Virus record (IMG/VR): IMGVR_UViG_3300043395_000254
Coordinates: 1 to 40,712 of that record
Length of the DNA stretch: 40,712 bases
Strand: one strand, 5' to 3'
From: a virus
The translations under genes and the position numbers were made by a program. The notes under the pieces were generated by a model that was not told the DNA's origin, did no database searches, and saw only the letters and a program-made list of their open reading frames with translations. Each line of letters opens with the position of its first letter. Within the stretch, counting starts at the first letter, position 1. Positions 1,971 to 22,420 of the stretch are shown piece after piece.

Positions 1971-2462
1971 ATGACACTGCAACAGGAATGGATTGATACC
2001 TTCAATAAACTACAACAACTTAGCGATTCATTGAATGTTGGTGACCCCTTTAATTATAACAGGGGTCGTGAGATACACACTGCATTTACCCTTGGGTTGA
2101 CTGTTAGTCAAACTTTCAGTGGAGCTGATGCTTACCTTGGTGATCAGCCAGTTGAACTTAAATCAACCACCACTAAAACCATCAAAGCCACATACAACGG
2201 CATCAGTGTTCAACCTACTTGGGATGATCAAGAGGACTATCTAATCAACGAAAAGCTTGGTAAGTATGTTTATCATTACTTCACTCGTTATGAGGGTTCC
2301 GAACTTGTAGAAGCTTGGCGTATGGATTGCGCTGATGTTCTGTCTATATTGCTCCCTAAACTCAAGGAGAGCTATAAGACTACACTAACTCGCAAGGACC
2401 CACGTCTTGGTGCCACCATCACTAAGAAGGAAATTGAGTCTTATGCAGAACGTATCATCTAA
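1971..2462 (+). CDS. PD-(D/E)XK restriction-endonuclease-like protein
   Basis: 163 residues. A helix with REIHTAF is followed by GADAYLGDQPVELKST, the PD-(D/E)XK pattern with Asp53, Glu62 and Lys64 as likely metal and catalytic residues. The rest is mixed alpha/beta with a basic C-terminus. The size fits small type II restriction enzymes or phage-encoded nucleases. An adenine methyltransferase begins 12 bases after it, so a restriction-modification-like pair is plausible; degradation of host DNA is the alternative. The ATG at 1962 dies after 11 codons, so 1971 is the start. Confidence 0.6.
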   Translation: MTLQQEWIDTFNKLQQLSDSLNVGDPFNYNRGREIHTAFTLGLTVSQTFSGADAYLGDQPVELKSTTTKTIKATYNGISVQPTWDDQEDYLINEKLGKYVYHYFTRYEGSELVEAWRMDCADVLSILLPKLKESYKTTLTRKDPRLGATITKKEIESYAERII

Positions 2463-2473
2463 CCTATCCACTA

Positions 2474-3022
2474 ATGAACAGCAACGCAATCCTTTATTCT
2501 CCTGGTAAGAACGACGAATGCTACACACCAGCATATGCGGTCGAGCCTATTCTCAAATACATACCTTCTGGGGCTACTGTATGGTGTCCATTTGATGACG
2601 AGTCTAGTGAGTTTGTTAAGCTAATCTCACAGCAAAACAAGGTTGTTCACACTCACATCTTTAGCGGCCAATCATTTCTTACATACAACCCAAACTTTGA
2701 CTGGGATGTCATTGTATCCAACCCACCATTCACAAATAAACGCAAATACTTCGAGAAAGCTTTATCGTTCAACAAACCATTCGCACTCATTATGAGTAAC
2801 ACTTGGCTTAACGATAGTGCTCCGAAGCAGCTCTTTAAGGATAAGGAGTTACAGTTGTTGATGTTTGATAAGCGAATAGAGTTCATTCAGCCAGATAGAG
2901 AGGTTACTGGTAAAGTGACATTCAGTAGCAGTTATTATTGCTGGAACTTCTTGCCTAAGCAGATCATTATGGAGACATTGAATCGTCCGCGTAAATCATC
3001 CACTACCGCACAAGCCAAATGA
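2474..3022 (+). CDS. Phage N6-adenine DNA methyltransferase-like protein
   Basis: 182 residues. Begins with a YTPAYAVEPIL segment, then WCPFD (residues 37-41) in the place of the AdoMet-binding motif, then VIVSNPPF (80-87) with catalytic motif NPPF. This is the layout of compact phage adenine methyltransferases. It probably methylates phage DNA, either against host restriction or against the nuclease-like product of the gene before. Its stop overlaps the next gene by four bases. A TCACACTCAC copy at 2647 lies inside it. Recognition site unknown. Confidence 0.72.
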   Translation: MNSNAILYSPGKNDECYTPAYAVEPILKYIPSGATVWCPFDDESSEFVKLISQQNKVVHTHIFSGQSFLTYNPNFDWDVIVSNPPFTNKRKYFEKALSFNKPFALIMSNTWLNDSAPKQLFKDKELQLLMFDKRIEFIQPDREVTGKVTFSSSYYCWNFLPKQIIMETLNRPRKSSTTAQAK

Positions 3023-3288
3023 CCTACCAACTCACTGTAGAAGATGTTGTTAGTCTGCGAGTCATTCCATTTCAACACTCTGAAGAATGTTTCCGTCGTA
3101 TCTCTAAGATGAGCAGAAATGAACTGGTTGACGCTTGCAAAGACTTCATTGCAGCTGAAGAGGCAATGAACTTGATGCACACTAAGTCTGTCGATCAATG
3201 CAAGGACGCACTACACCGTTTGTGTGTAGAGATCCAAGACTACCAAGACAGGCTTGGTTGGGAAGTCAACCGCTTTCCTGTTAAGTAA
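3019..3288 (+). CDS. Hypothetical early protein, 89 aa
   Basis: ATGA overlap with the methyltransferase stop, so probably translationally coupled. The product (begins MTYQLTVEDV) is predicted nearly all helical, with a long amphipathic stretch around residues 30-80. Three cysteines are present but do not form a clear zinc motif. No family recognised; context suggests the defence/counter-defence module. Confidence 0.65.
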   Translation: MTYQLTVEDVVSLRVIPFQHSEECFRRISKMSRNELVDACKDFIAAEEAMNLMHTKSVDQCKDALHRLCVEIQDYQDRLGWEVNRFPVK

Positions 3289-3304
3289 ACACTACCGATC
3301 ATTG

Positions 3305-3424
3305 ATGATGACTGAGACCAACATTATTCTTGCTGTGATTGGGATGATTGGATTGTTTGCTACGGCAACGATCTATCAGAGAGCCAATCGAATCACGAGT
3401 AAGTACTACAACAACCGTAAGTAA
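3305..3424 (+). CDS. Single-pass membrane peptide, 39 aa
   Basis: Begins MMTETN, followed by a hydrophobic segment (IILAVIGMIGLFATATIY, about residues 7-24) and a basic tail with Arg and Lys, predicting an inner-membrane protein with the tail in the cytoplasm. It fills the gap between two firm genes. The second ATG at 3308 is an equal start candidate. Holin-like size, but the early position makes lysis unlikely; membrane-acting exclusion or takeover peptides are possible. Confidence 0.55.
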   Translation: MMTETNIILAVIGMIGLFATATIYQRANRITSKYYNNRK

Positions 3425-3433
3425 TTCACAATC

Positions 3434-4000
3434 ATGACTGCCACCCAAACAATGATGCTCAAAGGCGATTCACTTATTGCACACAACACTGAATGGATGA
3501 CCCTCATCAATCGTGGTGAGAAGACACGCACCGATATGATCATGGACGCAGGTTATGCCTATGACAATGGCAAGGCTATGTATGTTGACTACTACACCGA
3601 ACTACTCAATGCTAAAGGAGTTATTCCTGTGACTACTGTTGATGTTGCTGATGTTGAGTATGACAACCTGTCCACAAATGAACAAGAGCTGTACGATGCA
3701 ATTACTAACCTGCTAGGTGAGAAATGGACTCATGAGGAAACGATTGAGTTCATGGACGAGTTAGAGGACATTGGTATTGAGACTGCCTCTGACTTTGAGG
3801 ATGCTTATGAGTACACCAGTGATGAGTATTGGGCAGAGAAAGACTTTGCTGAGTACTTCGTCATTGAGGTTATGGATGCACGTATCCCTGACATTGTAAT
3901 GGCAGCTATTGATTGGCAAGACGTATGGGATCACAACCTGCGTTATGACTACAACGCTATTGAGGCTGCTAACGGTACCTTCTTCTTTCGGAATCACTGA
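3434..4000 (+). CDS. ArdA-like antirestriction protein
   Basis: 188 acidic residues. The C-terminal half (about 118-188) reads like ArdA: DFEDAYEY, SDEYWAEKDFAEYFVIE, IPDIVMAAIDW, then a final aromatic stretch ending FFFRNH. ArdA proteins are elongated DNA mimics that occupy type I restriction enzymes, consistent with the many Asp and Glu. The N-terminal part matches less well and may be a separate module. It sits 400 bases after a methyltransferase gene, so the phage seems to combine two ways of avoiding restriction. Confidence 0.6.
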   Translation: MTATQTMMLKGDSLIAHNTEWMTLINRGEKTRTDMIMDAGYAYDNGKAMYVDYYTELLNAKGVIPVTTVDVADVEYDNLSTNEQELYDAITNLLGEKWTHEETIEFMDELEDIGIETASDFEDAYEYTSDEYWAEKDFAEYFVIEVMDARIPDIVMAAIDWQDVWDHNLRYDYNAIEAANGTFFFRNH

Positions 4001-4002
4001 TT

Positions 4003-4149
4003 ATGTTCAAAGAGTATGAAGTCACACTCACGTCGGGCATTTGGTATCTCATTGCCAAGGATGTAGAAGCAGCAGCATGGGCTGCATTAGAGCTAGCCAA
4101 TGAGGCTAGTGAGCAACTGATCAATGTACGTTTAGCGGAGGAATGGTAA
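4003..4149 (+). CDS. Hypothetical early protein, 48 aa
   Basis: Starts two bases after the ArdA-like stop; its TAA overlaps the next ATG. The product (begins MFKEYEVTLT) has a beta-type N-terminus and an Ala-rich helix (DVEAAAWAALELANEAS), the shape of small phage proteins with a host-protein-like WxxA helix. Function unknown. A TCACACTCAC copy starts at 4022, encoding V-T-L-T. Confidence 0.62.
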   Translation: MFKEYEVTLTSGIWYLIAKDVEAAAWAALELANEASEQLINVRLAEEW

Positions 4150-4331
4150 TGACTATTCATGACACATCCATCCCTGTTAGTGTCTTTCCTGATGAGTTCA
4201 TGCCCCTACTCAAGGTAATCAACTGTGCAATACAGATGCCTGAGAAGTTTGCATTAACTAATGAAGAGTTAGACAAGATTCGGTCATTTCAAAATGACTT
4301 CACTGACCTTGCATTTGAGTACGGAGTTTAA
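4149..4331 (+). CDS. Hypothetical early protein, 60 aa
   Basis: I chose ATG 4149 over the in-frame ATG 4143 because GGAGG at 4137-4141 is seven bases from 4149 but one base from 4143, and because TAATG overlap is the local rule. The product (begins MTIHDTSIPV) is acidic, with a helical C-terminal half (NEELDKIRSFQNDF). No family recognised. Confidence 0.65.
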   Translation: MTIHDTSIPVSVFPDEFMPLLKVINCAIQMPEKFALTNEELDKIRSFQNDFTDLAFEYGV

Positions 4332-4639
4332 TGGCTAAGAAAGAATACTTCCCTAACAACTGGCAAGAATACAAGGACGCAGATGACGACAGCTTCATCC
4401 CTCATACCTTTGAGGAGATCATGTCTTGGAAGGTTGCAGGTTGGGAGTTACCTAGCTCTGTGTGTTGTGTTATCCGTGTCACTGATGTAAACACCAAGAA
4501 AGTCAAAGAACATGTCTATAGCAAGCGTAGTGCTGCTCAAGCCAAGGTCAATCAACTGATTGATACACCTGGCATTGAGTTCACTGTTGCTGACCACGAC
4601 GCTATCCACCACCTTTCACCTGCTGATTTCAATGACTGA
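4331..4639 (+). CDS. Hypothetical early protein, 102 aa
   Basis: TAATG-coupled. The product begins MAKKEYFPNN and carries a central SSVCCVIRVTD strand followed by a basic helix (KEHVYSKRSAAQAKVNQLID), a strand-helix layout common in small phage nucleic-acid-binding proteins. It ends acidic. I recognise no named family; it looks like a cyanophage-conserved hypothetical. Confidence 0.68.
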   Translation: MAKKEYFPNNWQEYKDADDDSFIPHTFEEIMSWKVAGWELPSSVCCVIRVTDVNTKKVKEHVYSKRSAAQAKVNQLIDTPGIEFTVADHDAIHHLSPADFND

Positions 4640-4769
4640 AGCCACCTTTAACTTCCTTGTTGACACTCTTGTTGAGGAAGTGCGTATGCACCCGTATCGT
4701 GATGAACTGCTTGAGCTTGTTGCTGATCAACTAGCTGATGATGTCTATGTTATCGATGCCTCTTACTGA
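4632..4769 (+). CDS. Hypothetical early protein, 45 aa
   Basis: ATGACTGA overlap with the preceding stop fixes the start at 4632. Acidic and largely helical (begins MTEATFNFLV; DELLELVADQLADDVYV near the end). It overlaps the beginning of the integrase frame by 32 bases, so the two are probably co-translated. Function unknown. Confidence 0.6.
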   Translation: MTEATFNFLVDTLVEEVRMHPYRDELLELVADQLADDVYVIDASY

Positions 4770-5622
4770 ACTCACCACCTGGGGAGAAGCACTTGACTAC
4801 ACATTCAAAACCCGTCATTCATGGCGACATGGAAACGGAGCAAAGACTGCTGCAATCAATGCAGGACACTTTACGAGACTTAGAGGGCTTAGCTTTCCAA
4901 TACATCGAATCACTCAACCGATCATCAACGAACTCAGTACAGAGTTGGAGGACGAAGGAAAGTCAGATGCGACAATCAATCGCATCGTCAGTGCTATCTC
5001 TACGGTACTTAATCACTGCGCTTTCGACGGACTGATCCCTGCACCACCTAAGTTCAGGCGTCGTAAGGAACATGAAGGACGCATCACTTTCTACACCAAG
5101 GAAGAAGTCAATCAGCTGTACCACTCAGCGATTGATCCATTCATGAGAGAGGATGCGGCTGACATTCTATTAGTTGCTGCTTACACAGGCATGAGGCAAG
5201 GTGAGCTACTCAAGCTCAAGGCTAAGGACATTGACCTTGGTCTGAATGTTATTCACGTTGGAGGTCGAGCTGATGTTGTCACTAAAGCAGGCAACTACCG
5301 TAGCATTCCTATTCACACTCATATTGAAACTGTTCTCAGCAAACGCATATCAAACGTCAACTCCAACGTACCGATCTTCGGTGATGAATGGAACGACAAG
5401 GACCAACTGTTACGAGTCTTCAAGAAGGTCAACCGTTATATCGGTAAGGACGATAGCTATGTGTTCCATACACTAAGGCACAGCTTTGGCACATGGTGTG
5501 CTGAAGCAGGCGTTCCCATTCGTACCATCATGGACCTTATGGGACACAAGCGTATCGAGACAACGCTGAGATACTCTAAGTGTACTGACAAAGCTCGCAC
5601 CAAAGCTGTTAACTCACTATGA
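4738..5622 (+). CDS. int: Tyrosine recombinase (phage integrase)
   Basis: 294 residues with a complete catalytic set: Arg153 (TGMRQGELL), Lys183, His244 and Arg247 (HTLRHSFGTW), His270 (LMGH) and nucleophile Tyr279 (TTLRYSK). Residues about 10-100 form the helical core-binding domain. Integrases occur upstream of RNA polymerase in P-SSP7-type cyanophages, where lysogeny has rarely been seen. Starts at 4741, 4747 and 4756 are also possible. No attP is recognisable; the inverted repeats at 405-530 are the best candidate protein-binding array. A TCACACTCAT copy starts at 5313. Confidence 0.93.
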   Translation: MMSMLSMPLTELTTWGEALDYTFKTRHSWRHGNGAKTAAINAGHFTRLRGLSFPIHRITQPIINELSTELEDEGKSDATINRIVSAISTVLNHCAFDGLIPAPPKFRRRKEHEGRITFYTKEEVNQLYHSAIDPFMREDAADILLVAAYTGMRQGELLKLKAKDIDLGLNVIHVGGRADVVTKAGNYRSIPIHTHIETVLSKRISNVNSNVPIFGDEWNDKDQLLRVFKKVNRYIGKDDSYVFHTLRHSFGTWCAEAGVPIRTIMDLMGHKRIETTLRYSKCTDKARTKAVNSL

Positions 5623-6083
5623 AAAAAGCTTTATTTGCTGCCCTCACACTCATTTCTGTGTGGGCTAACCCTGCTGAGGCAACTCCTCAACTGCGTAACC
5701 TATTCACTGCAGTACAGGCTACTGGCACCAGCATTGTCTTAGATGACCCACGCATCTGCAAAGACCCTCAGCTGATGGGTATGTACAGCTATCGCAAGGA
5801 TGTCATTGATCAGCTCACCATTTGTGTTGCTAACCACCGTGGTGATAACGCTGGGCTGTACGACACCATCCTCCATGAGTCAGTGCATGTAGCACAAGCC
5901 TGTAAAGGAGGCCCTCTCTACTCACTAAGTTCACTTCTCAAATCATCACCTGATAACGAGATTGACTTTGTAAATAGTCGCTATACAGGTGAGCAACTGC
6001 ATCGTGAACTCGAGGCACGGGTGATTGCTCGTGATCAAGACGAAGTGTATGTAACCAACCTGATTAAGGAGGAGTGCAAGTAA
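5619..6083 (+). CDS. Secreted HExxH zinc-metallopeptidase-like protein
   Basis: 154 residues. N-terminus MKKALFAALTLISVWANPAEA is a classical signal peptide with cleavage after A-E-A (residue 21). The mature part contains ILHESVHVAQACKG, a HExxH zinc site (HESVH), and a downstream Glu in REL-EARVIARDQDE that could be the third ligand. It is probably exported to the periplasm; a role in the cell wall or in superinfection exclusion is conjecture. Overlaps int by four bases (ATGA). The peptidase call rests on one motif. Confidence 0.68.
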   Translation: MKKALFAALTLISVWANPAEATPQLRNLFTAVQATGTSIVLDDPRICKDPQLMGMYSYRKDVIDQLTICVANHRGDNAGLYDTILHESVHVAQACKGGPLYSLSSLLKSSPDNEIDFVNSRYTGEQLHRELEARVIARDQDEVYVTNLIKEECK

Positions 6084-8700: not shown

Positions 8701-9275
8701 TGGCACAAACCATCCACGTAACACAGCAACCAGTAGTCCTTGAGGGCTATCAAGCTGTACTGAAACCTTCTAAGTTTGGTTACTCCTTGTCTGCAATTGT
8801 AGATGAGAAGCTGATTGAAGTACTGGAAGCTGATCGAGTAGAGACTCTCAAATGGGCAGAGTCGAAACTGAAGAACCCCAAGCGTTCAACGCTTAAGCCC
8901 GAACCCTGGGAGGAAGTCTCTGAGGGTAAGTACAAAGTCAAATTCAGTTGGAATGAAGAGACCCGTCCGCCCGTCGTCGATACTGAAGGCACACCTATTA
9001 CAGACGACTCCACTCCCATCTTCAGTGGCTCAACAGTTAAGTTGGCCTTTAGGCAGAAACCATACATCCTGCGTGACGGTGTTACCTACGGTACCAGTCT
9101 CAAACTTGTTGGAGTACAAGTGGTCTCACTTAACTCTGCAGCAGGCGTTGATACTGGGGATCTGGGTGAGACGGAAGTTGCCGCACTATTCGGTCAAACA
9201 AAAGGCTTCAAGGCTGGTGAGCCGAATGTTACACCTGCTGCTGAACCTGTAGAAGATACTGACGAAGACTTCTGA
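8700..9275 (+). CDS. Single-stranded DNA-binding protein, T7 gp2.5-like
   Basis: 191 residues from ATG 8700 (TAATG with the polymerase stop). A beta-rich OB-fold-like body is followed by a low-complexity linker and the acidic tail EPVEDTDEDF ending in phenylalanine, the feature by which gp2.5 contacts DNA polymerase and helicase. Order (RNA polymerase, SSB, endonuclease I) matches T7-like cyanophages. The body diverges from T7, so the call leans on tail and position. Confidence 0.82.
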   Translation: MAQTIHVTQQPVVLEGYQAVLKPSKFGYSLSAIVDEKLIEVLEADRVETLKWAESKLKNPKRSTLKPEPWEEVSEGKYKVKFSWNEETRPPVVDTEGTPITDDSTPIFSGSTVKLAFRQKPYILRDGVTYGTSLKLVGVQVVSLNSAAGVDTGDLGETEVAALFGQTKGFKAGEPNVTPAAEPVEDTDEDF

Positions 9276-9628
9276 TGGCATTCCGCTCAGGGTTGGAGGA
9301 GAAGGTGTCCGATCTTCTCACCAATCTTGGTGTGAAGTACGAGTACGAATCAACAAAGGTTCCTTACATCCTCCAATGCAACTACACCCCAGACTTTCTT
9401 TTGCCGAATGGCGTTTACTTAGAGACAAAGGGACACCTGACAGAGGAGGACAGAAGGAAGATGAAAGCAGTGAAAGCTGCGAATCCCGAGTTAGATATTC
9501 GCTTCGTCTTTCAAACACCCTATAACAAGATCTACAAAGGATCTAAAACCACATACGCCAAGTGGGCTGAGAAACACGGCTTCCCTTGGTGTGCATTCCA
9601 CTCAATACCAATCGAATGGCTAACCTGA
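9275..9628 (+). CDS. Endonuclease I (Holliday junction resolvase), T7 gp3-like
   Basis: 117 residues. YTPDFLLPNGVYLETKGHL carries the metal-binding set Asp40, Glu50 and Lys52, with the spacing of T7 Asp55-Glu65-Lys67. PELDIRFVFQ and KIYKGSKTTYAKWAEKHGFP follow as in T7 gp3. It resolves branched replication intermediates before packaging and helps break host DNA. ATGA-coupled to the SSB gene. Slightly shorter than T7's 149 residues, missing the basic C-terminal tail. Confidence 0.92.
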   Translation: MAFRSGLEEKVSDLLTNLGVKYEYESTKVPYILQCNYTPDFLLPNGVYLETKGHLTEEDRRKMKAVKAANPELDIRFVFQTPYNKIYKGSKTTYAKWAEKHGFPWCAFHSIPIEWLT

Positions 9629-9825: not shown

Positions 9826-11359
9826 GAACTGTGGCAGTAGTGATGCCAATAGTCTTTACGATGATGGACATACCTACTGCTTTTCTTGCAACACCTACGG
9901 ACATACCGAAGAGTATGTTCACACTCACAAACAAATGTCCAATGTCCACCTTAAAGGCTCAGCCGAACGGCTGCAGAAACGAGGCATATCAGAAAAAGTA
10001 TGCCAACAATACAAAATCTACCGAGATGGAGATGTCCTACGCTTCCATTATTTCGACAGCTCTGGAATACTTAAGGGCTGCAAGCTAAAAACTAAAAACA
10101 AAATCTTCACCTACGAAGGAGAGACCCCTGGAACACTCTTTGGACAACATTTGTTTCCCTCCACTGGAAAACGAGTCGTTATCACTGAAGGGGAACTCGA
10201 TGCAGCTTCATGTAGTGAGGCTATGCCGGGGTGGCCGATGGTATCTCTACCTAGCGGTGCCGCAGCGGCAAGGAAGTCGATTCAACGGGCTATCCCATGG
10301 CTCCAGGGTTATGAGGAGATTGTCTTGTTCTTCGACAATGACGAGGCGGGCCGTAAGGCAACGGAGGAAGCAGCAAGCGTCCTACCACCTGGCAAGACAA
10401 AGATCGCACGTCTGGAGGCGTACAAGGATGCATCAGATGCCCTCCAAACCAATGACACTGAAGCGATTCGTCGAGCTATATGGGATGCAAAGCCGTACCG
10501 TCCAGATGGAATTGTAGACGGGAAGAGCCTCCTAGATCTTGTAACCACACCTAACCCACCTTGTGATTATGAGTATCCGTTTGAAGGTATAAATGCCAAG
10601 CTCCAAGGTATTCGCCTGGGCGAGCTGGTGACAATTACTGCTGGATCTGGAATCGGGAAATCGTCCTTTTGTCGTGAGTTAGCTGCCTATCTTCTGAACA
10701 AAGGAGAGAAGGTTGGTTATATCGCCTTGGAAGAGTCAAACCGCCGCACCGCCCTTGGACTGATGTCCGTTGCATGTGGTAAATCTCTTCACATCGGTGA
10801 GCACGACAAATCCACACTCACCGAGGCCTACAAAAACTCTATTGCCAAGTGGGACCTGTTTCTTTATGACGGCTGGGGCTCTGTAGACCCTGACATTATT
10901 TACAACAGAGTGGAGTATCTCGCTACTGGATTAGGTACTAGGGTGATCTTCCTTGACCACCTAAGCATCTTGCTGTCTGGTCTTGATGGCGATGAGCGTC
11001 GAATGATTGATCAGACAATGACTAAGTTGCGTTCACTTGTAGAGCGCACTGGTATTGCACTATTTCTTGTTTCACATTTACGAAGATCGTCCGATGACAA
11101 AGGACATGAAGAGGGCGCTCGGGTCACTTTGGGGCAGCTCAGGGGAAGCGCAGCTATTGCTCAACTCTCTGATGCAGTCATCGCACTCGAGCGAAATCAA
11201 CAGACCGACTCTGCTGGAAATAGCACGACAGTGCGAGTGCTTAAAAATCGCTATACAGGGCAAACTGGCATCGCTTGTCGATTGAGTTATGACTTGTCCA
11301 CTTGCAAATTCGAGGAGACTTTAGTCAATGACGACTTTGACCCAACCACTGATTTCTAA
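9785..11359 (+). CDS. Primase-helicase, T7 gp4-like
   Basis: 524 residues from ATG 9785, chosen because MNSDSEFVRHSPCENCGSSD lines up with the T7 gp4A N-terminus; 9761 and 9782 are alternatives. Zinc-binding domain: Cys13, Cys16, Cys32, Cys35. TOPRIM primase: Glu135 (TEGELDA) and DNDEAGR (184-190). RecA-type helicase: Walker A GSGIGKSS (287-294), Walker B VIFLDH (387-392), switch HLRRSSDD (431-438), probable arginine finger in KNRYTG, acidic tail ending TTDF. It unwinds the fork and makes primers. A TCACACTCAC copy is at 9919. Confidence 0.95.
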   Translation: MNSDSEFVRHSPCENCGSSDANSLYDDGHTYCFSCNTYGHTEEYVHTHKQMSNVHLKGSAERLQKRGISEKVCQQYKIYRDGDVLRFHYFDSSGILKGCKLKTKNKIFTYEGETPGTLFGQHLFPSTGKRVVITEGELDAASCSEAMPGWPMVSLPSGAAAARKSIQRAIPWLQGYEEIVLFFDNDEAGRKATEEAASVLPPGKTKIARLEAYKDASDALQTNDTEAIRRAIWDAKPYRPDGIVDGKSLLDLVTTPNPPCDYEYPFEGINAKLQGIRLGELVTITAGSGIGKSSFCRELAAYLLNKGEKVGYIALEESNRRTALGLMSVACGKSLHIGEHDKSTLTEAYKNSIAKWDLFLYDGWGSVDPDIIYNRVEYLATGLGTRVIFLDHLSILLSGLDGDERRMIDQTMTKLRSLVERTGIALFLVSHLRRSSDDKGHEEGARVTLGQLRGSAAIAQLSDAVIALERNQQTDSAGNSTTVRVLKNRYTGQTGIACRLSYDLSTCKFEETLVNDDFDPTTDF

Positions 11360-11771
11360 ACGGTGCAACCACTGCTTAGAGACAAAACCTCTTACAGAGT
11401 TCTACAAGAACCGTGCTAATAAAGACGGGCTACAAAAGAGATGCAAGCCATGCCAGGCAGCAGCCACTCTTGCTAGCAAAATCAAAGCTGGTAAGGAGTT
11501 GACTGATTATAGGCAGCACAGCACTCAGTTAAAGCGTAAGTATGGGATTACTCCTGATGACTACGCTGATATGCTCACTGCACAAGATGGTAAATGTGCC
11601 ATCTGCCAGTGCAATCAATGTACAACTGGCAGGAGGTTTGCAGTAGACCACGATCATAAAACTGGCAAGATCCGTGGTCTCCTGTGCGCCGACTGCAATA
11701 CAGCTCTTGGAAAATTCAACGATGACATCGAACGTATCCACTCAGCAATCCAATACCTTAAAGCGTCCTAA
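11328..11771 (+). CDS. Endonuclease VII-like HNH endonuclease
   Basis: 147 residues. N-terminal CNHCLETKP...CKPC zinc ribbon (about 13-42), then the endonuclease VII core: CAICQC, FAVDHDHKTGKIRGLLC, ADCNTALGKFNDD. His and Asp of VDHDH and the Asn of CNTALG are the usual catalytic and metal residues. Such free-standing genes cleave junctions (T4 gp49) or act as homing endonucleases in cyanophages. It overlaps the helicase 3' end by 32 bases. The apparent DNA polymerase break lies about 1.2 kb downstream. Confidence 0.88.
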   Translation: MTTLTQPLISKRCNHCLETKPLTEFYKNRANKDGLQKRCKPCQAAATLASKIKAGKELTDYRQHSTQLKRKYGITPDDYADMLTAQDGKCAICQCNQCTTGRRFAVDHDHKTGKIRGLLCADCNTALGKFNDDIERIHSAIQYLKAS

Positions 11772-12224: not shown

Positions 12225-12429
12225 CCTCTCACCCGCCGCTCAGGCTGTGCTAGATGCTGCTAATGGCGCTGGCTGCTATGGCCCAGATGACGTGCTCAAT
12301 GATTCCCGATGGATTGCCGCCGCCGCCCTGCGTGCTCTAGACAGCCAACTTGGATACACAGTGCTTGGCGTTCGCTGCGTTGACTGCTCCCAGATTGAAC
12401 TTATCGCCGCCGAGCTGGAGGGTCAATGA
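12217..12429 (+). CDS. GC-rich host-type hypothetical protein, 70 aa
   Basis: ATGACTGA overlap fixes the start at 12217 rather than the in-frame ATG at 12184. Product begins MTDLSPAAQAVLDAANGAG and has WIAAAALRALDSQ; this opening is common to small proteins of Synechococcus and their phages. A CVDCSQ pair lies near the C-terminus. Same GC-rich composition as its neighbour, so they probably arrived together. It ends ATGA-coupled to DNA polymerase. Confidence 0.68.
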   Translation: MTDLSPAAQAVLDAANGAGCYGPDDVLNDSRWIAAAALRALDSQLGYTVLGVRCVDCSQIELIAAELEGQ

Positions 12430-12944
12430 ACCTGATCTTCGACCTAGAAACAGACGGCCTATACGATGATTGCACCCACATCCACTGCATTGGTGTCTAC
12501 GATCTCGACACTAGGCAGACCTTTACATTCAATGATGAAGGCAGTGAGCAACCGATTACCAAAGGTGTCCAACTTCTTGAGGATGCAGATACTCTCGTTG
12601 GTCATAACATTATCGGTTACGATCTTCCTGTTATCCGCAAGCTCTTCCCTTGGTTCCAGTTCGCTGGTACTGTTGTGGATACTTTGGTTCTCAGCCGTAT
12701 TTATCACGCTGACCTGTTGAAGACTGATCAGAAGCGTAAGTGGAAGAACATGCCACTACAGCTCTATGGTCGTCACTCACTTGAGGCTTATGGTCACAGG
12801 CTTGGTGAATATAAGGGCAGCTTCGGTAAAACCACTGACTGGAAAGAGTGGTCAGAGGATATGCAAGATTACATGATTCAAGATGTTGTTGTTACCACCA
12901 AACTTTGGCACCATTTCCTACCCTACCTGACTGGGTTGCGTTAG
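12426..12944 (+). CDS. DNA polymerase, 3'-5' exonuclease portion (N-terminal fragment)
   Basis: 172 residues with three exonuclease motifs: IFDLETDGL (Exo I, Asp and Glu), VGHNIIGYDLPVI (Exo II) and DYMIQDVVVTTKLW (Exo III). This is the proofreading domain of a T7 gp5-type family A polymerase. It stops at TAG 12942-12944 right after Exo III, and the polymerase part continues in the -1 frame. The last residues (PYLTGLR) are out of frame with the homologous continuation LPDWVALEHRVAQ. It may work as a separate subunit or be artificially cut. Confidence 0.85.
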   Translation: MNLIFDLETDGLYDDCTHIHCIGVYDLDTRQTFTFNDEGSEQPITKGVQLLEDADTLVGHNIIGYDLPVIRKLFPWFQFAGTVVDTLVLSRIYHADLLKTDQKRKWKNMPLQLYGRHSLEAYGHRLGEYKGSFGKTTDWKEWSEDMQDYMIQDVVVTTKLWHHFLPYLTGLR

Positions 12945-14167
12945 AGCACCGAGTCGCACAAATACTAACGGAGCAAGAGATCTATGGATGGGCTTTTGAT
13001 GAGCCTGCTGCACGGGAACTTGAATCGACTCTCAGACAGGAACTTGAAGGTCTTAATCAAGTACTACGAAACAGGTACCCTTACGTTGCAGGACCGGAGT
13101 TCACTCCTCGTAGACCTAATAAGACCCAAGGGTACATCGCAGGAGCTACTCTCACTAAACTGAAGGAGTTCAATCCAGGTAGTAGAGATCACATCGCATG
13201 GGTGATGGAGACACTACATGGTTGGAAGCCTGATAAAGAAACAGCTAGTGGCAAGACTGCCATTGACGAGACTGTGCTCAAAGACATTGGAACTGAGGAA
13301 GCCCTTCAGTTTTATCGATGTCTTGAGCTAACCAAGCAGCTCGGCATGTTATCTGAGGGTAAGAACGCCTGGCTCAAGTTAGTCAAGAACAACCGAATAC
13401 ACCACAACTGTTCAGTAAGCACAAATACTCATAGGTGTGCTCACAGAAACCCAAACCTTGCACAGGTACCCAGTGATCTTAACTTTAGAAAGTTATTCAG
13501 AGCTAGCCCTGGTTCTGTCATGGTTGGTGCTGATCTCGCAGGCATTGAACTACGAATGCTTGCCCACTATCTGGCTCGATATGATGGAGGCCGTTACGGA
13601 GACATTTTACTCCACGGTGATATTCACCAAGAGAACGCCAACAAGATAGGCATTAGCAGACAGCTAACAAAAACAGTTACATACGCATTTTTATATGGTG
13701 CAGGCGATCAAAAGATTGGGCTCTCGTACGATGCCCAGCTTCCCCCGAACAAGGCGAAAGAAAAGGGCGCAGAAATTCGCGCAGCTTATGTTGCTGCCAT
13801 TGACGGTTTGGGTGAGTTACTTACCGCTGTTCGTTCGGCAGCTGACAGAGGCTTTGTCAAGTCGATAGATGGTCGCAAGATCGCTGTAGATAGCCCTCAT
13901 AAAGCTCTCAACTACCTGCTTCAATCTTCAGCTGGGGTTATCGCTAAACGCTGGATGGTTATTGCCAATCAGAATCTGCCAGCCGATCACACTCATCAAG
14001 TATTGTTCTGCCACGACGAATTACAATACGAGACACTACCAAACCATGCCGACACTCTTAAGCAACACCTTGAATTCTGTTCCAGACTCGCTGGAGAGTA
14101 TTATGGACTCCGGGTCAGAATTGACGCAGAAGCTAAAGTCGGAGCAACCTGGGCAGACGTGCATTAG
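12848..14167 (+). CDS. DNA polymerase, family A polymerase portion (C-terminal fragment)
   Basis: The open frame starts at a GTG 12848, but its first 25 residues shadow the exonuclease domain; real sequence probably begins near LPDWVALEHRVAQ (about 12925). Motif A is VGADLAGIELRM, motif B is RQLTKTVTYAFLYGAG, motif C is CHDELQYE, all intact. Joined to the exonuclease fragment it gives a polymerase of about 580 residues, short against T7's 704. The frames differ by -1 over a 97-base overlap. I see no standard slippery heptamer, intron or intein, so a lost base, a real gene split or an assembly error are the options. Confidence 0.88.
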   Translation: MVRGYARLHDSRCCCYHQTLAPFPTLPDWVALEHRVAQILTEQEIYGWAFDEPAARELESTLRQELEGLNQVLRNRYPYVAGPEFTPRRPNKTQGYIAGATLTKLKEFNPGSRDHIAWVMETLHGWKPDKETASGKTAIDETVLKDIGTEEALQFYRCLELTKQLGMLSEGKNAWLKLVKNNRIHHNCSVSTNTHRCAHRNPNLAQVPSDLNFRKLFRASPGSVMVGADLAGIELRMLAHYLARYDGGRYGDILLHGDIHQENANKIGISRQLTKTVTYAFLYGAGDQKIGLSYDAQLPPNKAKEKGAEIRAAYVAAIDGLGELLTAVRSAADRGFVKSIDGRKIAVDSPHKALNYLLQSSAGVIAKRWMVIANQNLPADHTHQVLFCHDELQYETLPNHADTLKQHLEFCSRLAGEYYGLRVRIDAEAKVGATWADVH

Positions 14168-21337: not shown

Positions 21338-22420
21338 ATGGTTGCAACAATCGCAGCTCGTGAGTCTCGCACTAACCCGTGGGACTCTTATCTCAACTGG
21401 GTAACCTCTACCCAAAACCGTCTTTATGTTGGGCACTTCGGTGTCCTGATGATTCCCTGCCTGTTGGCAGCCACCACTTGTTTTATTCTTGCGTTCATTG
21501 CCGCACCCCCGGTAGACATCGATGGAATACGAGAACCCGTGGCGGGCTCCCTACTCTACGGAAACAACATCATCTCAGGAGCTGTTGTTCCCAGCTCAAA
21601 CGCGATCGGACTCCATTTTTACCCAGTGTGGGAAGCTCATTCACTTGATGAGTGGCTCTACAACGGAGGCACGTATCAACTCACAGTCTTCCACTTCCTC
21701 ATTGGCGTCTTTGCTTACATGGGACGCGAATGGGAGCTTAGCTATCGACTAGGGATGAGGCCGTGGATTTTTGTAGCGTACTCAGCTCCCGTGGCCGCAG
21801 CGTTTGCTGTGTTTTTCATTTACCCGATTGGTCAAGGTTCCTTTAGTGATGGGATGCCTCTTGGTATTTCTGGAACCTTCAACTTCATGTTGGTGTTCCA
21901 GGCTGAGCACAACATCCTGATGAATCCATTTCATATGCTTGGTGTGGCTGGTGTGTTTGGCGGCAGCCTGTTCTCCGCCATGCACGGCTCCCTGGTGACC
22001 TCCTCCCTGGTGCGTGAAACCACCGAGAGCGAGAGCCAGAACTACGGCTACAAGTTCGGGCAGGAGGAGGAGACCTACAACATCGTGGCCGCCCACGGCT
22101 ACTTCGGTCGCCTGATCTTCCAATACGCGAGCTTCAACAACAGCCGCAGCCTGCATTTCTTCCTAGCGGCTTGGCCTGTTGTCGGCATCTGGTTCGCCGC
22201 TCTTGGTGTTGCCACTATGGCGACCAACCTGAACGGGCTTAACTTCAACCAGTCTATTCTCGATAGTCAAGGTCGAGTAGTTGATACTTGGGCTGACATT
22301 CTCAATCGTGCTGGTCTTGGCTTTGAGGTGATGCACGAACGTAACGCTCACAACTTCCCGCTTGACTTGGCAGCGAACAACATTGTTCCTATTGCCATGA
22401 AGGCTCCTACTATTGGTTAA
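21338..22420 (+). CDS. psbA: Photosystem II reaction-centre protein D1
   Basis: 360 residues, full length, with five transmembrane helices and the C-terminal extension after DLA that host CtpA removes. Begins [10 protein letters not shown] and ends MKAPTIG, as in marine Synechococcus D1. D1 binds the P680 chlorophylls, QB and the Mn cluster and turns over fast in light; phage copies replace it during infection. DNA from about 21955 to 22195 is distinctly GC-rich with host-like codons, while both flanks look phage-like, pointing to recombination with a host gene. No intron is seen. Confidence 0.98.

Follow-up and report, generated by a model that had tools for sequence, protein, structure and literature searches.

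Two adjacent genes in the early region of the viral genome analysed here, one for a PvuII-like PD-(D/E)XK endonuclease (RE) and one for a compact NPPF methyltransferase (MT), are best read as a virus-borne type II restriction-modification pair that would spare phage DNA and cut unmarked DNA. Both activities are predicted, and the probability of this reading is put at roughly 70%. RE has a restriction-type catalytic core, a separate DNA methyltransferase gene is linked to it, and the two occur together at most of the loci collected. The proposal of the earlier note that the first two genes of this region form a restriction-modification pair is thus very probably right.

The window, meaning the whole stretch of DNA analysed, comprises 40,712 bases and corresponds to positions 1 to 40,712 of IMG/VR virus record IMGVR_UViG_3300043395_000254. 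Its genes for an integrase, a T7-type RNA polymerase, a single-strand binding protein and endonuclease I follow the order of Synechococcus podoviruses, and within the phage collection it is most closely related to two such phages, S-CBP1 and DSL-LC07. A psbA gene (photosystem II D1), typical of cyanophages, is found at 21338-22420 (+). Elsewhere, an endonuclease VII-like (HNH/Zn) protein is encoded at 11328-11771 (+) adjoining the primase-helicase gene, and a DNA polymerase I-like protein is divided between two overlapping ORFs in different frames (12426-12944 and 12848-14167, both +), the result either of a gene that is split or of an indel in the sequence record. The phage had been described as lytic, a label that is unproven because the window carries a tyrosine integrase gene (4738-5622, +; PF00589, E 1.1e-24) that separates the early genes from the RNA polymerase gene; judging from it, the phage may have the capacity for integration. 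Directly after the integrase, 5619-6083 (+) encodes a protein that looks secreted and contains a metalloprotease-like motif, HESVH; the protein is also present in the related contig L005.

The region at 1971-4000 lies among the early genes that precede the RNA polymerase gene. It contains the five ORFs previously listed for it, all on the plus strand and at the positions given: RE (1971-2462), MT (2474-3022), an 89-aa ORF with no family assigned (3019-3288), a small membrane peptide gene (3308-3424) and an acidic ArdA-like anti-restriction candidate (3434-4000). Homology backs four of the five as genes, namely RE, MT, the membrane peptide and the acidic protein. Searches for Rfam RNAs and tRNAs found none in the region. 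The best sigma-70-like match of the early region lies at 727-755, and such matches are no commoner in the early region than in shuffles. Just upstream of the pair lies the gene for a 93-aa protein (1596-1877, +), 81% identical in S-CBP1. It has a match to DUF3574 (E 8.7e-10) and a weak one to the S-adenosylmethionine lyase family (E 4.7e-4); were it such a lyase, it would make a strange neighbour for a methyltransferase that depends on SAM.

The RE gene encodes 163 amino acids assigned to PHROG 35715 (E 3.8e-54). Against the Pfam PvuII endonuclease family (PF09225) the window protein reaches 18.2 bits (E 0.0026), short of the gathering score of 25 bits, and 27 of 39 homologues match the same family at E<0.1, the best at 2.3e-7. 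A profile built from 42 homologues recovered PvuII from the PDB both as the single-chain dimer 3ksk (E 6.7e-7) and as the monomer 2pvi (E 1.3e-3). With the AlphaFold model of RE (pLDDT 93.4) as the Foldseek query, PvuII chains make up the 12 best matches among solved structures (E 3.6e-6 to 3.2e-5; TM about 0.6), and no homing or resolvase family ranked above them. In the profile alignment, from which the PvuII residue numbers were counted, the catalytic D58, E68 and K70 of PvuII align with D53, E62 and K64 of RE, the predicted catalytic residues, which are invariant in 42 homologues at identities down to 25%. Sequence and model thereby identify RE as a PD-(D/E)XK nuclease with the PvuII fold and an intact catalytic triad, and cleavage is predicted. 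Profile, structure and invariant residues all confirm the PD-(D/E)XK assignment made in the earlier note; the modelled structure, on which that note had let the assignment depend, does contain the core.

The catalytic and recognition roles of individual PvuII residues are well established, and the recognition residues have been replaced in RE: in the profile alignment, D34 corresponds to Y29, H83-H85 to Q81-P82-T83, and N141 to D143. We take H83-H85 and N141 of PvuII to be residues that recognize CAGCTG. Asp34 is listed as a recognition residue in the title of PDB entry 3pvi. Because these residues are not conserved, the recognition site of RE is likely other than that of PvuII, and CAGCTG, probably not the site, is not favoured as a candidate. 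Within the RE family, D143 is invariant and Y29 is present at 90% or more, a pattern which suggests a site that differs from PvuII's but is fairly constant among family members. CAGCTG itself occurs 23 times in the window, a count that argues neither for nor against a methylated site. The most depleted 4-mer palindromes in the window are CCGG, AATT and CATG, as judged with no pair-less control set. In 660 kb of pooled marine loci, also with no control set, the strongest depletion is that of GTGCAC, seen 8 times against 101 expected, and of CATG, seen 714 times against 2675.

The MT gene (METHYLTRANSFERASE) encodes 182 amino acids that match PHROG 799, a DNA methyltransferase family, at E 2.8e-37. 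The match to the EcoRI methylase family PF13651 (E 4.6e-5, 23.3 bits) lies below the cut-off of 26.4; the same family was matched in all 36 homologues scanned, and the NPPF motif is invariant across MT homologues. The top fold match of the MT model (pLDDT 79.6) is M.TaqI (E 1.9e-5), an adenine-specific DNA methyltransferase. MT consists of the catalytic part only, with no separate target-recognition domain, and from sequence and model it is an NPPF methyltransferase with an M.TaqI-like domain. The motif and the neighbouring gene make adenine in DNA, presumably at N6, its likely substrate. Among the weaker fold matches are rRNA and tRNA methyltransferases, and going by the model MT could in principle act on RNA instead. 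Of the former description as an NPPF adenine methyltransferase, the methyltransferase part is borne out by PHROG 799, PF13651, the motif and the fold; the adenine specificity is only probable.

The association between RE and MT was examined from both sides. Of 80 MT-anchored loci from viral contigs, 78 were informative and two uninformative; RE lies less than 100 bp upstream of MT in 54 of the 78 and at 955 bp in one, and is absent in 23. Anchored on RE, MT is adjacent in 55 of 80 loci, within about 3 kb in nine, and not on the fragment in 16, these 16 records being incomplete fragments. Another adenine/cytosine-type methyltransferase is carried by five of the 16. It is not established that RE never occurs without a methyltransferase, as 11 of the 80, all incomplete fragments, show neither MT nor a PF01555 methyltransferase, in a look-up for MT that had no positive control. 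MT loci without RE often have a conserved metalloprotease-like gene with the motif HELVHLRQW directly upstream (L036:854-1376, L039, L042, L052, L066 and L071).

The incomplete overlap leaves room for the view that the two genes are no pair: MT would be a stand-alone anti-restriction mark, and RE an unconnected nuclease, for host DNA or for homing/recombination, that travels along. The MT loci lacking RE and the RE fragments lacking MT both fit this view, as does the fact that orphan methyltransferases are common in cyanomyoviruses. We nevertheless consider it unlikely. Linkage is about 70%, the order of RE then MT is constant among adjacent pairs, and the gaps are of a few bases (11 nt from the RE stop codon to the MT start in the window). 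The closest structures, moreover, are all of PvuII, a type II restriction enzyme, and not of a homing or resolvase family. Among 50,697 phage records the co-occurrence is exact: RE is found in only three isolates, P-SSM2, P-SSM5 and P-TIM68, and MT, at 60% identity or more, in the same three only. P-TIM68 has the two genes side by side; in P-SSM2 they share a strand and are separated by about 6.6 kb.

Also against independence, an unrelated DPPY methyltransferase (PF01555) stands directly behind RE in place of MT in two loci, L124 and L149. This arrangement counts for pairing, as it is expected if RE needs some methyltransferase; L096, which has a distinct DPPY family methyltransferase with RE, is a less direct case. 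The closest PDB structure to the enzymes encoded at L124:3638-4519 and L149:4556-5494 is the DpnA-type adenine methyltransferase 5hek (E 6.2e-31). A cyanomyovirus SPPY methyltransferase was rejected as evidence of partner exchange because it is widespread with or without RE. As a point against the RE-MT pair, cyanomyoviruses commonly carry a methyltransferase other than MT, and in some of these phages that enzyme may be the true partner of RE.

Both genes are under purifying selection, with a median dN/dS of 0.095 for RE and 0.096 for MT, and their distance matrices are correlated (r 0.60 in a Mantel test, a value reached in 0 of 2000 permutations). Linkage and correlation are support for the pair rather than proof, because shared contig ancestry inflates both. 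At L055:4478-4993 and L016:788-1351, RE homologues only 25-27% identical to that of the window lie beside or near an MT about 70% identical to the window's, and by these sequences RE diverges much faster than its partner.

Turning to genomic place, the pair occupies the same early neighbourhood in the podovirus contigs L005, L006, L007 and L060/L061 as in the window, lying upstream of the RNA polymerase gene and of homologues of the window genes at 4003-4149 and 4331-4639. The same neighbour genes occur with no pair in S-CBP1 and, in the stretch read, in DSL-LC07, and T4-like myoviruses carry the pair as well. In the podovirus early region, then, it behaves as an optional cassette. Presence or absence of two genes at one early neighbourhood in related podoviruses, along with their occurrence in T4-like myoviruses, would also be compatible with a selfish addiction cassette, in which loss of MT exposes the phage genome to RE and the phage gains no other benefit. 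This seems improbable, given that a lytic cycle leaves little time for post-segregational killing (though the integrase allows a lysogenic setting) and that MT-only loci are common, so that loss of RE is evidently tolerated.

The same patchy carriage, and the presence of the pair in only three isolates, may instead point to a superinfection-exclusion weapon. Here the pair would be kept for destroying co-infecting phages that lack MT, with the host either protected by a methyltransferase of the same specificity or irrelevant. The marseillevirus system provides a precedent, as host DNA remains undegraded and competitor DNA is susceptible (PMC7253447). A bacterial chromosome, however, has no sheltering compartment and would be cut too unless methylated, and mutual exclusion among chloroviruses is not caused by their restriction enzymes (PMC7019647). 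As the sole purpose of the pair, exclusion is on balance rather unlikely.

For the restriction-modification pair itself, the following course of infection is proposed. RE would cut a short adenine-containing DNA site, and MT would mark that same site. Virion DNA would enter a new host already marked by MT in the previous infection, and the phage genome would be spared. Upon early expression, RE would cut unmarked sites and MT would mark phage DNA as it is synthesized. Cleavage of the host chromosome at unmethylated sites would be unavoidable, and the unmarked genome of a rival phage would be cut as well. Pairs of this logic have viral precedents in chloroviruses (PMC7019647) and marseilleviruses (PMC7253447). 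With regard to the selected benefit, we lean towards host takeover and nucleotide release, with competitor exclusion a close second. The early-region position of both genes upstream of the phage RNA polymerase counts in favour of the pair; the T7-like endonuclease I already encoded at 9275-9628, which serves host-DNA breakage, counts against it.

The pair does not extend to the remaining genes of the region, and the five-gene island put forward as a single module is rejected, linkage across phages being found only for RE and MT. The ATG of the 89-aa ORF overlaps the MT stop codon; no homologue was found in any fetched locus and no family match was significant, so its suggested part in the system is not borne out. 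The membrane peptide, 38 aa from its ATG with a longer TTG-start reading from 3254, matches PHROG 29551 (E 9.6e-12) and is 89% identical in DSL-LC07 (L003), where the stretch read has no RE/MT pair. It is regarded as an early gene of cyanopodoviruses that does not depend on the pair, and the earlier suggestion that it is a component finds no support.

Early-region neighbours are often anti-restriction proteins, and the acidic protein (3434-4000; 188 aa) may well be one, encoded separately from the pair. Its pI is 4.05, with 41 acidic and 11 basic residues, and other cyanopodovirus loci encode proteins 57-69% identical to it, in podoviruses with the pair and in those without it (S-CBP1 and DSL-LC07). 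It matches the anti-restriction protein family PHROG 36653 at E 0.0012. The ArdA family PF07275 gave no match to the window protein and matched three of nine homologues (best E 0.0032), and no ArdA appeared among the PDB profile matches. The former label of ArdA-like DNA mimic therefore holds for the strongly acidic character and weakly for the ArdA family; an ArdA-like protein is plausible, if weakly supported, and DNA mimicry putative.

Outside viruses, there is hardly any trace of the RE/MT variant in the bacterial genomes and plasmids that were searched. The plasmid search returned no match to the RE subfamily, the genome collection returned one, where a MAG contig of 3.3 kb ends, and a known bacterial or plasmid origin was accordingly not found. 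PADLOC and NCBIfam gave no match for RE. In the open-access literature searched, no description of the RE/MT pair in cyanophages was found; N6A-methylases are mentioned in a cyanomyovirus comparison of 2010, whose main text nowhere uses the word 'restriction'. Virus-borne restriction-modification is already known, and what is new is a PvuII-fold RE with a one-domain NPPF MT common to T7-like and T4-like marine phages. At somewhat short of even odds, and tentatively, these phages may share a virus-specific restriction-modification lineage, a PvuII-fold RE of new specificity with a one-domain MT, that is used offensively on the host chromosome and on unmarked rivals, much like the chlorovirus systems.

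Restriction-modification normally serves bacteria as a defence against phages. If the present reading is correct, a conserved mobile pair in abundant marine phages turns it into a tool of attack and supplies a mechanism, open to test, by which hosts may be taken over or cyanophages may exclude one another. It would also explain PHROG 35715, annotated as of 'unknown function', and PHROG 799, annotated just as 'DNA methyltransferase'. RE would in addition provide a nuclease that is small and whose specificity is probably new. Since isolates with both genes exist (P-TIM68, P-SSM2 and P-SSM5), the idea is directly testable.

Compared with known systems, RE is closest to R.PvuII (PF09225), of similar length (157 versus 163 aa) and alignable over almost the whole chain with the catalytic triad aligned; the two differ in sharing about 20% identity and in their recognition residues. 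Their partners differ as well: RE is accompanied by an NPPF methyltransferase, and the methylase of PvuII, found in the PDB as 1boo, is an N4-cytosine enzyme. MT resembles the EcoRI-type and TaqI-type adenine methyltransferases (PF13651, M.TaqI) in its NPPF motif and Rossmann methyltransferase core, but with only 182 aa it has no separate target-recognition domain and falls below Pfam gathering scores. Among viruses, the likeness is drawn at the level of description. Chloroviruses likewise carry methyltransferase and endonuclease genes side by side, and their restriction-modification pairs are thought to degrade host DNA; in contrast to the present phages, they infect eukaryotic algae and package the nuclease in the virion (PMC7019647). 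The marseillevirus GATC system, also likened by description only, consists of an adjacent REase and adenine MTase found in some family members; it differs in belonging to a giant virus of amoebae and in leaving host DNA undegraded, and exclusion of competitors has been proposed as its role (PMC7253447).
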